Assembly (NCBI RefSeq): GCF_003054195.1
Contig: NZ_QBKP01000002.1
Coordinates: forward strand, 327,970 to 391,969
Length of the DNA: 64,000 nucleotides
Direction: 5' to 3'
Origin: Gemmobacter caeni
Lineage (GTDB): Bacteria; Pseudomonadota; Alphaproteobacteria; Rhodobacterales; Rhodobacteraceae
The notes under the pieces were generated by a model. It ran no database searches, was not told the DNA's origin, and saw only the letters and a list, made by a program, of their open reading frames with translations. The translations under genes and the position numbers were made by a program. Positions 4,245 through 60,139 of the stretch are shown here, one piece after another; within the stretch, counting starts at the first letter, position 1; every line of letters starts with the position of its first letter.

Positions 4245-5011
4245 GAAGAAATATCATTCTGACCGATCTGGACGACACCCTGTTCAGCTCCGCCCAGAAG
4301 GGGGGAGGGGTCGGCCCGCAGGTCACCGTCGCCAAGAACGGACATCACGGGCATATGAGCCCGGTCCAGGAGGGCCTGTTCCGGATGCTGTTCGCGGCAG
4401 GTGAGGTGATCCCGGTCACGGCACGCAGCTCGGACGCCTTCGCCAGGGTGCAGCTCGACTTCGGCACCCGACGCGCGATCCTCGCCAACGGGGCCGTCAT
4501 CCTCGACGCGTCCGGGGAGCCGGATCAGGAGTGGAACGCCCGGACGGCAGAGATCGGCCTCCGGTGCGAGGGTGCCATGGAGGGGATGGTCGCCGCCGTT
4601 ACGGAGGAGTTCGGCGATGGGGCCCGCTCCTGGATCGTCCGGGAATACGGGGCACCGGTCTACTTTTGCGTCAAGATGAACCGGCAGGAGCCGGAGGCGG
4701 TCGAGGCGGGTCTCCTTCATGCGGGTCTGATGCTTGAGGAGCGGTTTGACCTGTCCGGCTTCCAGCATCACGTGAACGGGAACAACCTCTCCTTCACCCC
4801 CCTGGGGATCTCCAAGCTGGACGCCTGTGCGCGTCTCATCGAGCAGGTCGCGGATCGTGCGGAGGTCACCCTGTTCGGGGTCGGCGACAGCCTGACCGAC
4901 CTGCCATTCATGCGTCTGTGCGACGTCATGATCACTCCGAGCGGCTCGCAGATCGCCAATCAGGCGATGCGACGTACCGTCGGCGAGGGCGTTTTGGGCG
5001 AGGGTCTGTGA
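4241..5011 (+). CDS. HAD-superfamily phosphatase of the Ter metabolic module
   Basis: The 256-residue protein begins with the HAD motif I sequence DLDDTL (residues 9-14), where the first Asp is the expected nucleophile. It ends with motif IV-like GVGDSLTDLPF (near residue 210), and its length suits a Cof-type cap. Such HAD enzymes accompany TRSP phosphoribosyltransferases in Ter operons and probably remove a phosphate from the pathway intermediate. The ATG at 4241 overlaps the previous stop as ATGA, which implies translational coupling. The substrate cannot be told from sequence. Confidence 0.85.
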   Translation: MRRNIILTDLDDTLFSSAQKGGGVGPQVTVAKNGHHGHMSPVQEGLFRMLFAAGEVIPVTARSSDAFARVQLDFGTRRAILANGAVILDASGEPDQEWNARTAEIGLRCEGAMEGMVAAVTEEFGDGARSWIVREYGAPVYFCVKMNRQEPEAVEAGLLHAGLMLEERFDLSGFQHHVNGNNLSFTPLGISKLDACARLIEQVADRAEVTLFGVGDSLTDLPFMRLCDVMITPSGSQIANQAMRRTVGEGVLGEGL

Positions 5012-6135
5012 TGGGGGCCCCGTTTCGTCATGATCCCGCCCTGGAGGGGACCAGCGGGAGCTATGCCCCAGAGGACGTCCGCTTCCTTCTGAGCCGGGTA
5101 AAGGTCGAACCGACCCCGATCGCGGAGAAGGAACGCCGAATCCAGTCGGGCGAGACCCATTATTCCGAGATGATCTCGGAGGAGCGGCGTCCCGACGCCA
5201 GCTACCTTGAGCTCTTCGAGAACGCCTGCGTACCGGGCATCCCCCGTCTCGCGACAGAGATCCGCGCCCTCACCGAACGCCTGATCCGCCTGGCGGGGGC
5301 CGGTCGGCTGAACCCGCAGATCACCCTGTGCAGCCTCGTGCGCGCCGGTGTCCCCTACGGGGTCCTTCTGCGCAGAGACCTGCGCAGGCTCGGGGCGGAC
5401 GTGGCCCATTTCGGGGTGTCGATCATCCGGGACCGGGGATTGGACCCCGTCGCCATGCGGCGCGTCATCGAGGAGCGTCCGGTCGACGGGATCATCTTCG
5501 TTGACGGCTGGACAGGTAAGGGGGCGATCGCCTCCGAGCTTGAGCGGTCATGGGGGGAGATCTCCGGTCTCTCCCCGATCCTCGCCGTGGTCGCTGACCC
5601 CTGCGGACGCGCGGCGCTCTGCGGGTCGCGCGATGACTGGCTTATCCCGTCTGGCATCCTCGGCGGGAACGTCTCGGGCCTGATCTCCAGATCCGTCCTG
5701 CGTCCTGACCTTACGGGACCGGACGCGTTTCACGGCTACGTCCCGCTCGACCATCTGACCGATATCGACCTGTCGCGCAGCTTCGTCGACCGGGTGGACG
5801 CCCTGCTCGAACGGATCACCGGGCCTGTCAGTTCGGACCCGGACGCCGCGCCCTGGGAGGCGGGCCGTTTCCGTGCCGCGGCCGAAACGGCCGTTGAGCG
5901 GATCGCGGAACGCTACAGGATCGCGAACATGAACCGGATCAAGCCCGGAATCGCCGAGGCGACCCGCGCGGTCCTGCGCCGCCGACCGGACCATGTTCTG
6001 GTCCGGTCCGGCTCAGGGGACCCGGACCTCGCCGCGCTCCTGCATCTGTGCGCCCAGGACGGGGTCCCGGTCGTCGAGGCGCCCGAACTCACCGGCCCCT
6101 ATCGGGCCGTCACCCTGATCAGGAGAACAAGCTGA
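5011..6135 (+). CDS. StiP-type phosphoribosyltransferase with C-terminal PELOTA-like domain
   Basis: The N-terminal part matches the StiP / PRTase_1 family from Ter operons: GSYAPEDVRFLL near residue 12, EKERRIQSGETHYSEMIS near residue 38, a RAG segment, SIIRDRG, and VDGWTGKGAI (near residue 160) as the PRPP-type loop. The last 65 residues form a small alpha/beta domain resembling the PELOTA RNA-binding domain often fused here. The family is sometimes named as a cysteine protease, but a transferase reading fits the loop better. The gene overlaps its upstream neighbour by one base (TGATG). It acts in the same predicted nucleoside-like pathway. Confidence 0.85.
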   Translation: MGAPFRHDPALEGTSGSYAPEDVRFLLSRVKVEPTPIAEKERRIQSGETHYSEMISEERRPDASYLELFENACVPGIPRLATEIRALTERLIRLAGAGRLNPQITLCSLVRAGVPYGVLLRRDLRRLGADVAHFGVSIIRDRGLDPVAMRRVIEERPVDGIIFVDGWTGKGAIASELERSWGEISGLSPILAVVADPCGRAALCGSRDDWLIPSGILGGNVSGLISRSVLRPDLTGPDAFHGYVPLDHLTDIDLSRSFVDRVDALLERITGPVSSDPDAAPWEAGRFRAAAETAVERIAERYRIANMNRIKPGIAEATRAVLRRRPDHVLVRSGSGDPDLAALLHLCAQDGVPVVEAPELTGPYRAVTLIRRTS

Positions 6136-13629: not shown

Positions 13630-14928
13630 ATGACCGAGCTCGCACCCGGCGCCAACGCCGCCCTCCCTGCCGGGGACCTCACCGTCCTGATCCGCCACGG
13701 GTCGATCCCGGGGGCGGAGATCGACGTCTCCGCCTTCCTCGTGACCGGGACCGGGAAGGTCCGCTCCGACGCGGACATGTGCTTTTACGGCCAGCCGTCC
13801 GTCGCGGGCGGCGCGGTGACCCTCCAGGGGGACGCGAACGGGGAGACCCGTTTCTCAGTCGCCCCGGGCCGGATCCCGGCCGGGGTGGAGAAGGTGATCC
13901 TGACCGCGACGATCCATGAGAACCGGGCCCCCTTCGGCCGGCTCCCGGAGATCAGCCTCGAGGTGAGCGGGGTCCGGGGCCGGATCCCCTGCGCGGGGAT
14001 GACGGAGACGGCGCTGATCCTGGCGGAGCTCTACCCGCGGAACGGGGCCTGGAAGGTCCGGGTGGTCGGGCAGGGGTTTAACGGGGGGCTCGCGGCGCTG
14101 GCCACCCATCTGGGGGTGGAGATCTCCGATCCGGCGCCCGCCCCGACGCAGACGCCCGCCGCCCCGCCCCCACGAGCGGAGCCGGCGAAACCGGCCTCGC
14201 AGATCCGCCTCGAGAAGCGCCTCGTGAGTCTCGAGAAGAAGGACAAGGAGCTCCTCTCGCTCGTCAAGAAGGTGAGCGTCTCGCTCGAGAAGAAGCGGCT
14301 CCTGACGGACCGGGCCAAGGTGGCCCTCTGCCTGGACATCTCCGGCTCCATGTCCTCCCTCTACAAGGCGGGGAAGATCGACACGCTCGTGCGCCGGGTC
14401 ATGGCGCTCGGGTACCGGTTCGACGATGACGGGGAGATCGACGTGTTCCTGTTCGGGGCGAACGTGCACGAGTGGGGACCGATCGGGGTCGATGATTACC
14501 GGACCTTCGTCAAGGACATGCAGCGCCGCCACCCGCTCGAGGGGGGGACGCGATACGGGGCCGCCATCGAGCGGATCCGCACCTTCTACGCCCGAAACAA
14601 TCCGGAGGGGCTCCCGGTCTACGTCATGTTCGTCACGGACGGGGGGACGGAGGACAAGGGGAAGACGGAGAGGGAGCTGCGCGCCGCCTCCGCCGAGCCG
14701 CTCTTCTGGCAGTTCATGGCGATCGGGGCGTCCGGGTTCTTCTCCGGGGTCCGGTTCGAGTTCCTCGAGAGGCTCGACGAGCTGACCGGCCGGAAGGTGG
14801 ACAACGCGAACTTCTTCCAGGTGGCGGACCCGGCCGCCCCCTCGGATGAGGAGATGTTCGAGCTGATGATGGGGGAGTACCCGGACTGGCTCAAGGCGGC
14901 CCAGAAGGCCGGCGTCCTCAAGGTCTGA
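13630..14928 (+). CDS. terF: TerF-like: TerD domain fused to von Willebrand A domain
   Basis: Residues 1-168 form a TerD domain, but the usual acidic calcium loop is altered (no GDNxTGDGDGDDE stretch). A Pro/Ala linker follows (168-190), then a charged region with repeated SLEKK units (200-222). Residues about 230-430 form a vWA domain with an intact MIDAS motif DISGSMS (236-242), GGTRYG for the threonine ligand, and FVTDGG for the distal Asp. This is the TerF architecture. vWA domains bind metal and partner proteins. The first domain is nearly identical to that of the next gene, which implies recent duplication. Confidence 0.88.
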   Translation: MTELAPGANAALPAGDLTVLIRHGSIPGAEIDVSAFLVTGTGKVRSDADMCFYGQPSVAGGAVTLQGDANGETRFSVAPGRIPAGVEKVILTATIHENRAPFGRLPEISLEVSGVRGRIPCAGMTETALILAELYPRNGAWKVRVVGQGFNGGLAALATHLGVEISDPAPAPTQTPAAPPPRAEPAKPASQIRLEKRLVSLEKKDKELLSLVKKVSVSLEKKRLLTDRAKVALCLDISGSMSSLYKAGKIDTLVRRVMALGYRFDDDGEIDVFLFGANVHEWGPIGVDDYRTFVKDMQRRHPLEGGTRYGAAIERIRTFYARNNPEGLPVYVMFVTDGGTEDKGKTERELRAASAEPLFWQFMAIGASGFFSGVRFEFLERLDELTGRKVDNANFFQVADPAAPSDEEMFELMMGEYPDWLKAAQKAGVLKV

Positions 14929-16421: not shown

Positions 16422-19400
16422 ATGCTCGACGCCCAGAAGAGCCCCGCCGAGGCGGGGATGCCCAACATCTCCCGTCAGATCTGGGACATGAAGTACCGCC
16501 TCAAGGACGCGGACAAGCGGCCGGTCGATCTGACCGTCGAGGACACCTGGTCCCGGATCGCGAAGGCGCTCGCCGAAGCCGAGCCGGAGGCGATCCGCGC
16601 CGAGCAGGAGGCCCGCTTCTACAAGGCGCTCGAGGGGTTCCGCTACCTGCCCGCCGGGCGGATCATCGCCGGCTCCGGCACCGGCCGGAACGTGACCCTG
16701 TTCAACTGCTTCGTCATGGGGACGGTCCCGGACAGCATGGACGGGATCTTCGACATGCTGAAGGAGGCGGCGCTGACCATGCAGCAGGGGGGCGGGATCG
16801 GGTACGACTTCTCGACGATCCGCCCGAAGGGGGCCCGCGTGAAGGGGGTCGGCTCGGACGCGTCCGGGCCCTTGAGCTTCATGGACGTCTGGGACGCGAT
16901 GTGCGGGACGATCATGTCCGCCGGCTCCCGGCGCGGGGCGATGATGGCGACGATGCGCTGCGACCACCCGGACGTGGAGGACTTCATCACCGCCAAGCGG
17001 GACCCGGCCCGTCTGCGAAAGTTCAACCTGTCCGTCCTGGTCACGGACGCGTTCATGGCGGCGGTCGAGGCGGATGCGGACTGGGACCTGGTCTGGCAGG
17101 GGCAGGTCTGGAGGACCCTGCGCGCACGCGACCTCTGGGACAAGATCATGAAGAGCACCTACGCCTTCGCGGAGCCGGGCGTGATCTTCATCGACCGGAT
17201 CAACGAGCGTAACCCGCTCGCCTACGTGGAGCGGATCGCCGCGACCAACCCCTGCGTGCCGGCCGGGACCCCGATCCTGACCCGTCAGGGCTGGCGCGAG
17301 ATCGACACGATCGTCGACACGCCCGTCGAGGTCTGGAACGGGGCGGAATGGTCCCGGGTGACCCCGCGGGTGACCGGACATGACCAGCCGATGGTCCGGG
17401 TCTCCCTCAGCAACGGGCGGGGCCTGATTTGCACCACCGCGCACCGGTTCCTGACGGAGACGGGCGCGCGGGTCGACGCGGCCGCCCTGCGTCCGGGCCA
17501 GGCGCTCCTCACCCATGACTGGCCGGTCGTCCGCGCAGGCGCCCCGGTCGAGGGGGCCTACGCCCAGGGGATGCGCGCGGGCGGCGCGCCGGTTCAGGCG
17601 CGGGTTGCGAAAAAATCGACGGTCATGGCGGGAGCGGACGGGTCCGACCTCCCCGAGGCGCTCTCCGGCCTGATCGACGGGGCGCTGCCCTCGAGCTTCG
17701 TGCCGGGCGCGGACTGGGACGTCGCGTCCCGCCTGGCCTGGCTCGCCGGGCTGATCGACGCGGGCGCGGAGATCACGGGGCAGGGGGTGATCGTCCGGTC
17801 GAAGGACCGGGGCTTCCTCGGCGCGGTGCAGCTCCTCCTGAACACGCTCGGGGCGGCCGCGACGCTCCGCGGGGACGGCGCGCTCCTGATCGGCGCGCCG
17901 GCGCTCGCCGCCCTGAGGGGGCTCGGGCTCCCGGCCCGGACCGACCTGCCCGCGGCGGCCCCCTCGCACGGGTCCGGACCGGTCCGGGTCATCGCCGTCG
18001 AGCCGCTCTCGGAGGAGGCGGACGTGGTCTACTGCTTCACGGAAGAGAAGCGTCACGCCGGCTGCTTCGACGGGGTGCTGACCGGGCAGTGCGGGGAGCA
18101 GCCGCTCCCCCCCTACGGGGCCTGCCTGCTCGGCTCGATCAACCTGGCCCGGCTGATCTCGAACCCGTTCACGGATGAGGCCCGTCTCGACGAGGCGGAG
18201 ATGGAGGAGCTGGTGGCGACCGCGGTCCGGATGATGGATAACGTGGTCGACGTCTCCCGCTTCCCGCTCCCGCAGCAGCTCGCCGAGGCGAAGGCGAAGC
18301 GCCGGATCGGCCTCGGGGTGACCGGGGTCGCGGACGCGCTCCTGATGTTGCGCCTGACCTACGGGACCGAGGAGGCGGCCGCCCAGCTGGAGGCCTGGCA
18401 GCGCAAGATCCAGCACGCCGCCTATCGGGCCTCGGTCGAGCTCGCCAAGGAGAAGGGGCCGTTCCCGCTCTTTGACGCGGAGAAGTACCTCGCCTCTCCC
18501 ACGATCCAGGATTTGGACGCCGACCTTCAGGACGCGATCCGGGAGCACGGGATCCGCAACGCGCTCCTGACCTCGATCGCGCCGACCGGGACCATCTCGC
18601 TCTACGCGGGCAACGTCTCCTCCGGGATCGAGCCGGTCTTCGCCTACGCCTACAAGCGCAAGATCACGCTCGATGACGGGTCGAAGGCGGAGGAGGAGGT
18701 GGTCGACTACGCGGTCCAGATGTATCGGGACATGTTCGGGGCGGAAGCGGACCTGCCGGACTATTTCGTCTCCGCGCAGACCCTGAAGCCGCTCGACCAC
18801 GTCCGGATGCAGGCGGCCGCCCAGAAGTGGGTGGACAGCTCCATCTCGAAGACGGTGAACTGTCCGGAGGACATCTCCTTCGAGGACTTCAAGGCGGTCT
18901 ATGAGGAGGCGTTCCGGTCCGGCTGCAAGGGGTGCACCACCTACCGGCCGAACGAGATCACCGGGTCCGTCCTCTCCGTCGAGCCCGCGAAGAAGGAGGA
19001 GAAGCCCGCGCCCGTCCCGGCCCCGCAGGGCTCGACCCGGCCGATGCCGCGCGACCCGGTCCTCGAGGGGCGCACCTACAAGATCAAGTGGCCGGCCGCC
19101 ACCCACGCCTACTACCTGACCGTGAACGACGCGGTCGATGAGGCGGGGGTCCGTCGCCCGTTCGAGGTGTTCGTGAACACCCAGAACACGCATGACGCGG
19201 ACATGCTCGCCGCGATCACCCGGATGATCTCCGCCGTGTTCCGCCGCGGCGGCGACGTCGGCTTCGTCGCGGAGGAGCTGAGCCAGATCGTGAACCCGCA
19301 GGGGGGGCACTGGGTCGAGGGGCGCTACGTCCCCTCGCTGGTCGCCCTGATCGGCGCCAAGCTCTTCGAGCACATGGGGGCGATCGGGTTCCTCGCGCCG

Positions 19401-19559
19401 CAGGCGGCCCCGGCCGCCCCGGTCGCGGCGGAGCCGGTCCCGGATCTGCGCCCGGTGAAGCGGACCCGCCCCGGCTGTGACACCCCGGACGCCTGCGACC
19501 TGGTGATGGAGTCGGGTTGCGAAAAATGCGTCGCCTGCGGGTGGAGCAAGTGCGGCTGA
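16422..19559 (+). CDS. nrdJ: Adenosylcobalamin-dependent (class II) ribonucleotide reductase with intein
   Basis: The 1045-residue precursor reduces ribonucleotides to deoxyribonucleotides after removal of an intein (residues 278-556). The extein of 766 residues shows NrdJ features: FRYLPAGRIIAGSG, FNCFVMG (active-site Cys), GGGIGYDFSTIRPKG, NPC-GEQPLPPYGACLLGSINL across the splice junction (catalytic Cys and Glu), TAPTGTISLYAG-type loop, and SGCKGCTTYRPN. The C-terminus CDTPDACDLVMESGCEKCVACGWSKCG supplies redox and zinc cysteines. The ribosome binding site ACGGAG precedes ATG 16422. B12-dependent enzymes need no oxygen or small subunit. Confidence 0.93.
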   Translation: MLDAQKSPAEAGMPNISRQIWDMKYRLKDADKRPVDLTVEDTWSRIAKALAEAEPEAIRAEQEARFYKALEGFRYLPAGRIIAGSGTGRNVTLFNCFVMGTVPDSMDGIFDMLKEAALTMQQGGGIGYDFSTIRPKGARVKGVGSDASGPLSFMDVWDAMCGTIMSAGSRRGAMMATMRCDHPDVEDFITAKRDPARLRKFNLSVLVTDAFMAAVEADADWDLVWQGQVWRTLRARDLWDKIMKSTYAFAEPGVIFIDRINERNPLAYVERIAATNPCVPAGTPILTRQGWREIDTIVDTPVEVWNGAEWSRVTPRVTGHDQPMVRVSLSNGRGLICTTAHRFLTETGARVDAAALRPGQALLTHDWPVVRAGAPVEGAYAQGMRAGGAPVQARVAKKSTVMAGADGSDLPEALSGLIDGALPSSFVPGADWDVASRLAWLAGLIDAGAEITGQGVIVRSKDRGFLGAVQLLLNTLGAAATLRGDGALLIGAPALAALRGLGLPARTDLPAAAPSHGSGPVRVIAVEPLSEEADVVYCFTEEKRHAGCFDGVLTGQCGEQPLPPYGACLLGSINLARLISNPFTDEARLDEAEMEELVATAVRMMDNVVDVSRFPLPQQLAEAKAKRRIGLGVTGVADALLMLRLTYGTEEAAAQLEAWQRKIQHAAYRASVELAKEKGPFPLFDAEKYLASPTIQDLDADLQDAIREHGIRNALLTSIAPTGTISLYAGNVSSGIEPVFAYAYKRKITLDDGSKAEEEVVDYAVQMYRDMFGAEADLPDYFVSAQTLKPLDHVRMQAAAQKWVDSSISKTVNCPEDISFEDFKAVYEEAFRSGCKGCTTYRPNEITGSVLSVEPAKKEEKPAPVPAPQGSTRPMPRDPVLEGRTYKIKWPAATHAYYLTVNDAVDEAGVRRPFEVFVNTQNTHDADMLAAITRMISAVFRRGGDVGFVAEELSQIVNPQGGHWVEGRYVPSLVALIGAKLFEHMGAIGFLAPQAAPAAPVAAEPVPDLRPVKRTRPGCDTPDACDLVMESGCEKCVACGWSKCG
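17253..18089 (+). other. Intein in nrdJ with degenerate LAGLIDADG endonuclease
   Basis: A 279-residue intein interrupts the conserved NPCGEQPLPPYG motif exactly before the catalytic-loop Cys. Block A is CVPAGTPIL with Cys1, block B is CTTAHRFL (TxxH), and block F is VYCFTEEKRHAGCFDGV. It ends in TGQ before Cys+1, so the terminal residue is Gln rather than Asn, a variant known from some inteins. One LAGLIDAGA motif (near residue 445) is visible. The acidic residue that binds metal in LAGLIDADG enzymes is Gly here, so homing is probably lost while splicing may persist. Confidence 0.88.
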
Positions 19560-54418: not shown

Positions 54419-55423
54419 TCAGTCAAAGGAGCTGGCGACAGGCGGAAGGTCCGAGGATCTGATCGCGTTCACCACGGAGCGGACGCTCAGGAGGAGGAGA
54501 CGCTGGTCCTCGACCCCGGGCAGATCTGCCCGGACCGCCGCCAGAACCTCCTCCTCCGGCTCGCCTGCGCGGACCCGCGGCTCCGCCAAGGCCCGCACCG
54601 CCTCGACGAGGTCGTTCCCGGCCAGCGGGGACGGCCCCGTCATGTCGAAGAGGAGCGCTGTCCGGTCCCCCGATTCCAGAAGGCGTCGAACCGGGACCTC
54701 CTCGACGAGGGTCCGAACAACGAGTCGGCCGTCCGGACGGCGCCCCTCCGGGATCCGGTCCCAGGTCTCCTGCCCGATCAGCGCGTAACGCGCACGCCGC
54801 TGGTAGAGGGCCCCGAGCCGATCCGCCTCGGCGAAATCCGTCTCAAACGCGACCCCGCGGTCCCGCATCAGGCCGATCATCTCCGGTCCGGAGAGCCCCC
54901 GCATCTCGGAGGGGCGTGCGACGGAGCGGCAGGCGGCGCTGATCCCGTTCTTGCGCGCGTCCTGGACCCGCCAGAGGATCGCGTTCGCCGCCTCCGTCCG
55001 GTCCGGGACGGACCAGGCGCGGGCGTCGAAGCTCGGCAGCCCGTCCAGGGCCCGGTCCGGACGGGTCCGGTGGAGCGCGCGGATAAAAAGCGCGGTCGCA
55101 AGCGAGGCGCAGGTGGACGCGATCTTCTGGGACCGGCCCGAGAAGGGGAGCGCGTCCTCCTCGTGACGCCGCTCGAGGATCAGGCTGATCTCGTCGGACT
55201 GGACGTAGCCGGCCCGGGCCCCGGTCTCCTCGACGAGGAGGCGGCAGGTCTCCCGCATCGCCCCGGACAGGTCCGGGTCGAACGGTTTGCGGAAGCCCCG
55301 CGTGAACTTCGAGAACCGGCGCCCGTCGATCCGGACCAGGACCGGAAGGTCCGGCGGCAGCGTGCGCTGCGCCTCCGCCGCCTCGTAGCCCTTCATCCGG
55401 TCGCCGAACGCGTCCCTCTCCAT
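54419..55423 (-). CDS. thg1: Thg1-like tRNA 5'-end 3'-to-5' polymerase
   Basis: A 334-residue Thg1-family protein. The palm-domain metal sites are VRIDGRRFSKFTRGF (Asp near residue 31) and YVQSDEISLIL (Asp/Glu near residue 79), matching the family's two carboxylates. Other conserved parts are the start RDAFGDRMKGYE, DGLPSFDARAWSVPDRTEAANAILWRVQDARKN, and GISAACRS. Thg1 adds G-1 to tRNA-His, and Thg1-like proteins repair 5'-truncated tRNAs by reverse polymerisation. It lies inside a large tRNA array that includes a tRNA-His with A73. Confidence 0.9.
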   Translation of the reverse strand: MERDAFGDRMKGYEAAEAQRTLPPDLPVLVRIDGRRFSKFTRGFRKPFDPDLSGAMRETCRLLVEETGARAGYVQSDEISLILERRHEEDALPFSGRSQKIASTCASLATALFIRALHRTRPDRALDGLPSFDARAWSVPDRTEAANAILWRVQDARKNGISAACRSVARPSEMRGLSGPEMIGLMRDRGVAFETDFAEADRLGALYQRRARYALIGQETWDRIPEGRRPDGRLVVRTLVEEVPVRRLLESGDRTALLFDMTGPSPLAGNDLVEAVRALAEPRVRAGEPEEEVLAAVRADLPGVEDQRLLLLSVRSVVNAIRSSDLPPVASSFD

Positions 55424-55996: not shown

Positions 55997-56677
55997 TCAG
56001 GCCCAGAGCAGGTCGAACCGGCCCCGCATCACCGCGGAGCAGGCGGCGGACCTGCCCGTCAGGTGGTCCTGAACCCGGTCGTCCCGGAACCGGTAGGTGC
56101 GGCGTTTGTCCGCCCGCATGCCCGTTCCGACCTGGTCCGACCGGGCCCGGTTCTCCCGCCCTCGCGCCTCCCCCTCGGAGAGGTCCCGGAGCCGGTCCAG
56201 CAGCGCCTCGCGCGCTTGACGCAGGCTCTCCTCCCGCTTCCGGCACTGGGCCGTCACCACGAGGCCGGACGGCAGGTGCCGGAGCCGGACGGAGTTCTGG
56301 TGCTTGTTGCGGTGCTGACCGCCCGCCCCGGAGCCGGAATACCACTCGAGCTGGAGGTCACCCTCCTTGAGGGGGATAGGTGCCCCCCGCCGCGTGTCGG
56401 GGAGGACGGAGACGGTGACGGTCGAGCTGTGCACGCGGCCGTTCCGCTCGCCGAGCGGGACCCGCTGCACCCGGTGCCCGCCCGCCTCGTTCCCCCAGGC
56501 GGACAGGTCCGCCCCCTCGAGGAGCAGGAGGTGGGTGCGGGCCTCCCCGGCCGGCGCGCGCCGGCGCAGTCAGCCCTTGCCGGCGGCGAATTTCACGTAG
56601 GCCTCCGCGAGCTCGGAGGCGAAGAGTTCGGCGTCCTGGCCGCCCTCGGCGGGCCGGATCTCGATGCGCAGTCGCAT
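55997..56677 (-). CDS. Class I release-factor-like protein with in-frame UGA codon
   Basis: From ATG 56677 the frame reads MRLRIEIRPAEGGQDAELFA, a short PCRF-type start, to a UGA at 56572-56570. It continues in the same frame without other stops as LLLLEGADLSAW, EAGGHRVQRVPLGERNGRVHSS, then the catalytic loop SGSGAGGQHRNKHQNSVR (GGQ intact) to 55997. Total 226 codons. The stop-recognition tripeptide PxT of RF1 is PLG here. The UGA is followed by C, a weak-stop context. It may be decoded by readthrough, as an autoregulated gene like prfB (which uses frameshifting), or be a mutation. GGQ factors hydrolyse peptidyl-tRNA on ribosomes. Confidence 0.8.
56570..56572 (-). promoter_or_regulatory. In-frame UGA stop inside the release-factor-like gene
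   Basis: The stop falls after codon 35 (AAGKG) in a frame that remains open and homologous on both sides. The next base is C (UGAC). Neighbouring genes end in UGA, so UGA is a normal stop here. Confidence 0.75.
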
Positions 56678-56754
56678 GGTCTTCTCCTTCTCTGCGATGC
56701 GGGACGCGAGGAAGAGCTGTCCCCCCGCGGCGTCCCGCGCGGGGGGGCGCGTCC

Positions 56755-57171
56755 TCACCGGAGCTTCAGGTGTCCGGTCAGGGCGTGGATCCGGTCCGGG
56801 TCCCCGGGCCCGATCGCGAGAGCGGTCCTCGTCGGGACCCCGTTGAACTCGGTCCGGCCCGCGTCCGTGATCAGGCAGCAGGGGATCCGCTCGCGGAGCG
56901 CGGCCGCGTGGAGGGCCGTAAGCTCCTCCTCCGTGTCGACCCCGACCGCCACCTTGGCGAAGGGGCCGTCGAGCCACATCCGGACGAACGGGTCGCGCCG
57001 GTGCGCGAGATAGGCCCCCATGGAGGCGTGCGCCCCCTGGGCGATCTCCTTGCCGCGCCGCATCTTCAGATCCGTGCGCAGGATGATCATCTGTTTGAGC
57101 CGCCCCTCATGGCGGCGCATGAGGCGGCGGAGCGCCCACATGGGCAGGTATCGTCCGATGAGCCGGAACAT
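56755..57171 (-). CDS. pth2: Pth2-type peptidyl-tRNA hydrolase
   Basis: A 138-residue protein. After a short basic N-terminus, MIILRTDLKMRRGKEIAQGAHASMGAY carries the Pth2 signature (Lys and Gln-Ala-His catalytic segment). Then VDTEEEL, ITDAGRTEFNGVPTRTALAIGP (Thr/Asp of the active site). Pth2 releases peptides from drop-off peptidyl-tRNA. Pth2 is the archaeal/eukaryotic type and less usual in bacteria. It lies next to the release-factor-like gene and two tRNA-Val genes, so it belongs to a translation-rescue set. Confidence 0.9.
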   Translation of the reverse strand: MFRLIGRYLPMWALRRLMRRHEGRLKQMIILRTDLKMRRGKEIAQGAHASMGAYLAHRRDPFVRMWLDGPFAKVAVGVDTEEELTALHAAALRERIPCCLITDAGRTEFNGVPTRTALAIGPGDPDRIHALTGHLKLR

Positions 57172-60063: not shown

Positions 60064-60139
60064 TGGCAGGGGCAGAGGGATTTGAACCCCCGACATCCGG
60101 TTTTGGAGACCGGCGCTCTACCAGCTGAGCTATACCCCT
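60064..60139 (-). tRNA. tRNA-Trp (anticodon CCA)
   Basis: Acceptor AGGGGTA/TGCCCCT, anticodon loop CTCCAAA, discriminator G, encoded CCA. Reads UGG. A normal CCA anticodon gives no strong UGA suppression. Confidence 0.95.

Follow-up and report, generated by a model that had tools for sequence, protein, structure and literature searches.

A conserved in-frame UGA in a phage-type RF1-like release-factor gene points to expression by programmed readthrough

The release-factor gene described here is probably (at roughly 85% by our own estimate) an intact gene for programmed readthrough, whose output is tied to slow termination at an in-frame UGA. It lies in a window of 64,000 nucleotides, which is the whole stretch of DNA analyzed and corresponds to positions 327970–391969 of contig C2 (446,545 bp). 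As read from the sequences, the UGA is conserved, one frame codes on both sides of it, base +4 is never U, the codon stands at the equivalent of a Trp position, and the genetic code is ordinary; readthrough is the route of expression that best fits them. Nearly every viral relative read is interrupted as well, which makes the stop look like a control that belongs to the gene and not like damage.

We infer that ribosomes would start at the ATG and reach the UGA at codon 36, where most would be released with a 35-residue peptide, too short for a release factor, and where a minority would decode the UGA as Trp by means of a near-cognate tRNA-Trp and go on to complete a 226-residue factor of RF1 type. 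Competition at the UGA between host RF2 and the near-cognate tRNA-Trp would set the amount of full-length product, which would go up when termination at UGA is slow and down when it is fast. Readthrough may be raised by a weak context (no U at +4), and perhaps also by a downstream hairpin and by the tRNA-Trp of the neighboring tRNA island. The purpose of such an arrangement may be to supply a factor for UAA and UAG when termination capacity runs short and to keep it low at other times, with the level set by that capacity, chiefly by RF2.

The gene and its signals are laid out as follows.

56684..56689, minus strand: ribosome-binding site AAGGAG, 5' of the ATG, from the sequence
56677-56675, minus strand: start codon ATG, from the sequence
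55997..56677, minus strand: RF1-type class-I release-factor gene lacking domain 1; ATG to terminal TGA spans 226 codons, with one internal UGA
56572-56570, minus strand: in-frame UGA, codon 36, which lines up with the conserved Trp of bacterial RF1
56569, minus strand: base +4, a C, the first base of a CTG Leu codon; never U here in relatives
56550..56565, minus strand: predicted hairpin GCCGGC-GCGC-GCCGGC, a candidate stimulator from folding, with moderate family-level support
56450..56458, minus strand: position of the stop-reading tripeptide, PLG in the window gene
56315..56323, minus strand: GGQ catalytic motif, codons 119-121, from the sequence
55999-55997, minus strand: terminal TGA, in the same frame as the ATG, the UGA and GGQ

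The original prediction, of a release-factor-like gene with an in-frame UGA, stands, since the ATG, the UGA, GGQ and the terminal TGA share one frame and this frame, with the UGA read as one residue, exceeds the Pfam cut-offs for both RF-1 (70.1 bits, cut-off 35) and PCRF (59.9 bits, cut-off 24). The PCRF match begins at position 104 of 194, which means that domain 1 is missing from the window protein, and 18 aligned relatives begin at the same point. When 19 family members were used in a PDB profile search, RF1 structures came first (E 2e-62) and RF2 structures later (from E 2e-39). The gene is predicted on these grounds to encode a bacterial-type class-I release factor of RF1 type that carries out peptide release. 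The read-through protein (56677-55997) also matches PHROG 19918 at 138.9 bits, a phage family listed as of unknown function. A purine-rich core lies no more than 25 bases from the start in 73 of the 78 loci (relatives and window together). Elsewhere in the source genome, contig C1 carries two more genes of the same release-factor family, and contig C5 carries one whose frame is short (143 aa).

The tRNA genes, Pth2 and Thg1 named in the original prediction are present, with 26 tRNA genes in the window (39 on C2) and a Pfam match for both proteins.

56755..57171, minus strand: Pth2 peptidyl-tRNA hydrolase (PF01981, 105.5 bits), 77 bases upstream of the release-factor gene
54419..55423, minus strand: Thg1 tRNA-His guanylyltransferase (PF04446, 110.6 bits), downstream of the release-factor gene
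60064..60139, minus strand: tRNA-Trp(CCA) in the tRNA island, with 87% identity to the tRNA-Trp of contig C4

Genes matching YqeY and Sir2-like families in Pfam also lie among the window tRNA genes. Farther away, at 4918-6135 and 13630-14928, the contig carries stress genes (StiP/PELOTA and TerD/TerF-like) of the kind linked to tellurite resistance, and a ribonucleotide reductase gene at 16422-19559 has a weak internal LAGLIDADG match that suggests an intein or homing element. Over the rest of C2, where 18 of 162 large ORFs were scanned, we found tail-fibre-like repeats, helicases, a polymerase exonuclease and a VirB4/TraG-like protein, and no match to Terminase_6N was obtained in the source genome. 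The VirB4/TraG-like ATPase stands at the end of C2 (L140:1185-3725), and because of it the contig may be a conjugative plasmid or a mixed element rather than a phage.

Conservation of the UGA was followed in viral contigs with the part of the gene 3' of the UGA as query, which gave 240 relatives, the best 80 of which were kept. Among these best 80 of 240, read upstream from the match with no requirement for a stop, a stop occupies the equivalent of codon 36 in every locus that reaches that codon; L034 and L093 begin 3' of it, and L026, which begins at the interrupted codon itself, has TGA there too. With a pattern that did require a stop, the codon is TGA at 78/78 sites (77 relatives from the best 80 of 240, and the window). 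A second scan avoided this bias for stops by admitting TGA or TGG alike, and it returned TGA in all 80 loci listed out of 82 stretches (67 of them distinct) and TGG in none. An in-frame GGHR follows downstream in 78 of these 80 loci; of the two exceptions, L439 ends before GGHR could be reached, and L379 lacks an in-frame GGHR after the UGA and differs from the others downstream. That the UGA occupies the same codon in all the loci so listed, with TGG equally allowed, indicates that it is held by selection.

The homologues thus bear out conservation of the UGA, a check named in the original prediction, with no sense codon in its place in any homologue read in the window's clade, and an error in one base cannot explain the same triplet in so many separate assemblies. 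Conservation of the C in the UGAC context, which belonged to the same check, is not supported: base +4 is A at 55 of the 78 sites, G at 19, C at just 4 and U at none. The codon before the UGA is one for Gly at 77 of the 78 sites (GGC in the window).

Coding in a single frame through the UGA is also seen in the pattern of substitutions among 66 distinct members of equal spacing. The pooled pN/pS is 0.266 over the 33 codons before the UGA, 0.432 over the 28 codons after it and 0.379 over the 50 codons further on, with median pairwise dN/dS of 0.137, 0.272, and 0.186 for the same three stretches, and in shifted frames pN/pS reaches 1.0–1.5 for the first two. These values indicate that the release-factor protein is constrained in one frame on either side of the UGA. 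The UGA column itself is ungapped in bacterial RF1 and holds Trp in 30 of 32 sequences and Phe in the other 2, in a set where 12 of the 32 come from one genus. An AlphaFold model with Trp at the UGA (15 aligned sequences) has a mean pLDDT of 83.9 and a pTM of 0.72, and it places a strand (2–11) and a helix (14–33) before the UGA and strands (37–41 and 49–54) after it. By Foldseek, this model fits ribosome-bound RF1 as a whole, with TM of 0.81–0.83 for the first five matches.

Wider scans, with the huge-phage factors of GenBank LR756502 and LR745206 and then others as queries, brought in related viral genes whose frames are broken as well, though at different codons and through different mechanisms. 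That other clades recode this region of the gene by different routes speaks for the readthrough reading. A census of 267 loci, the window included, was reduced to 175 by dropping 38 without the motif pair and 54 exact duplicates, and subtraction of 12 bacterial RF1 left 163 distinct viral genes (the window and five GenBank records among them). Recoding is found in 160 of the 163, and the remaining three (L243, L328, and L329) are uninterrupted. A same-frame UGA occurs in 102 genes (89 with one and 13 with two), a same-frame UAG in one gene (L293), and a +1 frameshift in 57 genes, where the stop is UGA in 40, UAG in 15 and UAA in 2; over all recoded sites the control stop is UGA at 155, UAG at 16 and UAA at 2. 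The frameshift genes have CTT before the stop in 57/57 cases and a Shine-Dalgarno-like pentamer three bases ahead of the stop in 39/57, and a Shine-Dalgarno-like core precedes only 2 of the 116 same-frame sites. The claim that no frameshift is needed, unlike in bacterial prfB, therefore holds for the window's clade and fails more widely, as a prfB-like +1 frameshift occurs in 57 of the 160 viral genes that are recoded. L293, with its same-frame UAG, is located near relatives whose UGA falls close to codon 40 in the motif count.

Several loci outside the census complete this picture. L304, L316, and L335, which the motif filter missed, proved on inspection by eye to be +1 frameshift forms too, and L154 (GenBank LR756511) is a fourth uninterrupted phage gene without domain 1. 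Viral contigs also carry RF2-like genes with no interruption over the part read, namely L171, L172, and L201. L197 and L198 share their contigs with L171 and L172, and L155 and L156 are uninterrupted full-length RF1 genes in records called phage. L026, L034, and L093 begin inside the gene, and the others listed among the loci without the motif pair are short GGQ proteins. The uninterrupted viral genes, L243, L328, L329, and L154 together with the RF2-like L171, L172, and L201, count against the readthrough reading, as does L379 with its dissimilar downstream part.

The census members are related to one another and the viral contigs are assemblies; near-copies remain, with the 163 genes forming 118 clusters at a coarse similarity cut (116 of them recoded). 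Of the 55 phage records that matched, 8 places were covered, and in an open census the recoded share may be lower, the scans having started from recoded genes. For bacterial relatives, a scan of genome contigs with single-sequence patterns, which may miss distant ones, gave 12 Pontibacter RF1 genes only, and in a search of 101 genomes the closest match outside the window's own genome had 42% identity.

In a quick likelihood tree of 170 rows (recoded columns included), the window falls within a starred clade of 76 rows that is exactly the set with UGA at this codon, with a long end branch (1.23) and an unsure place inside the clade. The tree calls for at least nine changes among readthrough, frameshift and uninterrupted forms, and the starred branches alone force three changes each for readthrough and frameshift.

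The bases around the recoded stop suggest weak termination. Base +4 is U at 0 of the 155 recoded UGAs (115 same-frame and 40 frameshift) compared with 40 of the 146 terminal TGAs of the group-A loci, a contrast with a Fisher p of 1e-14 if relatedness is ignored. Where Leu comes right after a same-frame recoded stop, its codon is CTN in 27 of 27 cases, and downstream of GGHR the same genes (window left out) write Leu as CTN 93 times and as TTR 85 times (Fisher p 2e-7). By these two marks the UGA would sit in a weak stop context.

Signals at the level of RNA are more diffuse. A test of synonymous choice in 65 members of the main clade against each gene's own habit finds the highest constraint at codons +2, +3, +4, +5, and +9 (1.25–2.02 bits), and values are also high away from the UGA at +22 (1.68) and +30 (1.03). 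In 33 representatives compared with synonymous codon shuffles (60 each), the mean folding z is lowest in the stretch that spans the UGA at −1.27, a moderate excess of structure, with −1.01 just after the UGA, −1.05 six codons on and −0.92 upstream. The window hairpin has a predicted stem of 6 bp, all GC, four bases 3' of the UGA, and folds of 78 sites place a stem after the UGA in many relatives. One RNA structure common to all relatives was considered and rejected, as the same folds show no single structure; this, and the presence of folding and synonymous signals elsewhere in the gene, tell against the readthrough reading.

The rival that survives best is direct autoregulation, in which the phage-type factor, with an altered or all-stop specificity, would itself read the UGA and so limit its own synthesis as RF2 does at the prfB frameshift. 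UGA is the control stop at 155 recoded sites (against 16 for UAG and 2 for UAA), and 13 genes carry two UGAs, which speaks for this rival. The specificity may also have drifted, given PLG in the window and the missing PxT segment in L149, and 15 of the 57 frameshift genes are gated by UAG, which an RF1-type factor should read itself. RF1 reads UAA and UAG but not UGA, and the RF1-like tripeptide PPT, found in 150 of the 163 viral genes, predicts reading of UAA and UAG where most of the gates are UGA. The PLG noted in the original prediction is indeed what the window protein has in place of the PxT motif, but it is peculiar to the window gene and no family trait, given this PPT. UGA is the leakiest stop, and it is perhaps used for that reason. 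Since the tripeptide of the relatives is RF1-like and RF1 does not read UGA, the direct sensor may instead be host RF2. The PLG of the window could mean a changed stop specificity, and autoregulation by the factor itself is uncertain; we consider it a serious contender with the odds somewhat against it.

A second alternative is that the locus makes two products, a 35-residue peptide and, from a start codon of its own, a distinct protein encoded downstream. In 33 of the 78 loci at least one in-frame GTG or TTG does lie between the UGA and GGHR, but no in-frame ATG occurs there in any of the 78, no ATG, GTG or TTG at all is present in 45, and the conserved protein begins directly after the UGA. 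A start of its own for the 3' part, which would have undone the original prediction, is thus found to have little going for it, and we regard two products as very improbable.

Reading UGA as a plain Trp codon, under a code with UGA = Trp in the replicon or its relatives, would fit the Trp that most bacterial RF1 have in this column. Code-4 phages with an RF1 have been described (in the excerpted text of PMC10746230). Allowing UGA as sense also raises ORF coverage. The gain is slight in the huge-phage segments (0.911 to 0.919, 0.824 to 0.828, and 0.808 to 0.825) and larger in LR745208, which is richer in GC (0.794 to 0.874) and where TAG as sense has a like effect (0.89). Against this, UGA terminates 32 of the 41 window ORFs that reach 200 codons; in relatives it terminates 146 of the 458 ORFs that reach 150 codons, and there the open extension beyond the UGA has a median of 7 codons, which is random-like. 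Elsewhere in the window gene Trp is written TGG, the UGA stands at other columns in other clades, and within ORFs opened to UGA in the AT-rich huge-phage segments TGA is much scarcer than TGG (11/156, 28/216, and 17/138). The segments of three such huge phages look standard-coded, and LR745208 is less clear in that several altered codes raise its coverage. No tRNA with a UCA anticodon, the UGA suppressor type, is found among the 39 tRNAs of C2 or among 731 in the fetched loci (distinct within each of three groups), which for most phages cover parts of the genome; this absence also tells against the readthrough reading. The ORF ends indicate that UGA is an ordinary stop elsewhere in the window and its clade, and a UGA = Trp code there is refuted unless UGA readthrough were general; we give it very little chance.

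The island tRNA-Trp is a possible extra supply of UGA-misreading tRNA. A suppressor tRNA-Trp of the Hirsh type was rejected, as the D-arm of the island tRNA-Trp pairs normally (CTCG/GAGC). Outside the window, a tRNA with a CUA anticodon, of the amber suppressor type, lies at C2:416871-416942, and CUA tRNAs are also present in L061, L085, L258, L261, L265, L266, and L363, replicons with a recoded release factor. The occurrence of PLG in the window protein and a CUA tRNA on the same contig might reflect a changed reading of UAG.

Selenocysteine at the UGA would be in line with the stem after the UGA in many relatives and with L328, where the column holds TGC (Cys), one base from TGA. It is nonetheless very improbable, because all 32 bacterial RF1 sequences have Trp or Phe in that column, the stems share no structure common to all, and the two matches to the tRNA-Sec model above its cut-off are tRNA-Ser genes. 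A pseudogene or base-calling error, for which one might cite that genes in decay usually show premature stops and that L379 lacks the in-frame GGHR, is already refuted by the same TGA at the same codon in 78/78 sites, by constraint on both sides and by a confident RF1-like model.

Programmed readthrough of the UGA is the reading that we carry forward from this comparison. A broader reading, which we put forward tentatively and below even odds, is that recoding is the rule for such phage factors, nearly all of them being gated either by readthrough at a single UGA or a pair of them or by frameshifting at UGA, UAG or UAA, that these forms interchange in evolution, and that the factor reads stops broadly enough to sense its own gate, which would amount to a phage-borne termination feedback. 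If true, this would include a readthrough form never seen before and a UAG form for an RF1-type gene. Readthrough gates of both UGA and UAG occur in phage-type RF1-like genes beside the frameshift form, and together they make up a set of naturally occurring switches, all at the same point of a single gene. The arrangement also suggests sensing of host termination capacity by large phages. At a practical level, gene finders that use the standard code will cut such genes short.

Among known systems, the release factors of code-switching phages share a phage-borne RF1-type factor and a role for UGA with the gene described here. In the code-4 phages the RF1 occurs with a suppressor tRNA and TrpRS (as excerpted from PMC10746230), and the difference is that no reassignment is seen here and no UCA tRNA was found on C2 or in the fetched loci. 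A survey of huge phages mentions RF1 and RF2, and its excerpted text has no word on internal stops (PMC7162821). The best literature matches, covered as titles and abstract openings and with most subscription journals outside the set, contain no report of recoded phage release factors.

The closest viral case is the class-I release-factor gene of Mimivirus and Megavirus, in which internal stops are passed by readthrough and frameshift (Jeudy 2012, PMC3521657); the excerpted review of Atkins 2016 (PMC5009743) likewise mentions a giant virus of amoeba with a gene that uses both. The likeness lies in a virus-encoded release factor with recoded internal stops. That factor is of eukaryotic/archaeal type, in a eukaryotic virus and with both events in one gene, whereas here the factors are bacterial-type, use readthrough or frameshift, and occur in many viral contigs.

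A readthrough-controlled RF2 gene was imagined before prfB was sequenced, according to the excerpted text of Atkins 2016 (PMC5009743), which also states that an early in-frame UGA with the frame continuing is in no bacterial RF2 gene and that a UAG/RF1 counterpart is unknown. As summarized there, the imagined gene would have an early in-frame UGA that a near-cognate tRNA reads through when termination is slow, as proposed here, and it differs in having been an idea only and in that the present gene is RF1-like. That idea, which precedes the sequencing, is now directly testable in E. coli.

Feedback through a stop inside a release-factor gene has its textbook case in prfB. The +1 frameshift of prfB (RF2) shares with the viral genes an early stop, mostly UGA, in a class-I release-factor gene, and a need for recoding to reach full length; in the other viral clades the likeness extends to CTT before the stop and the Shine-Dalgarno-like pentamer. 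The window's clade differs in staying in frame 0 without a slippery site, with GGC before the window UGA, and the viral factor is of RF1 type and lacks domain 1. The viral frameshift sites differ further in that 15 of the 57 have UAG, a stop that PMC12421855 reports as absent from all 8,164 bacterial genomes carrying the prfB frameshift motif. Control of prfB is the nearest known kind of regulation, and the viral frameshift clades resemble it closely.
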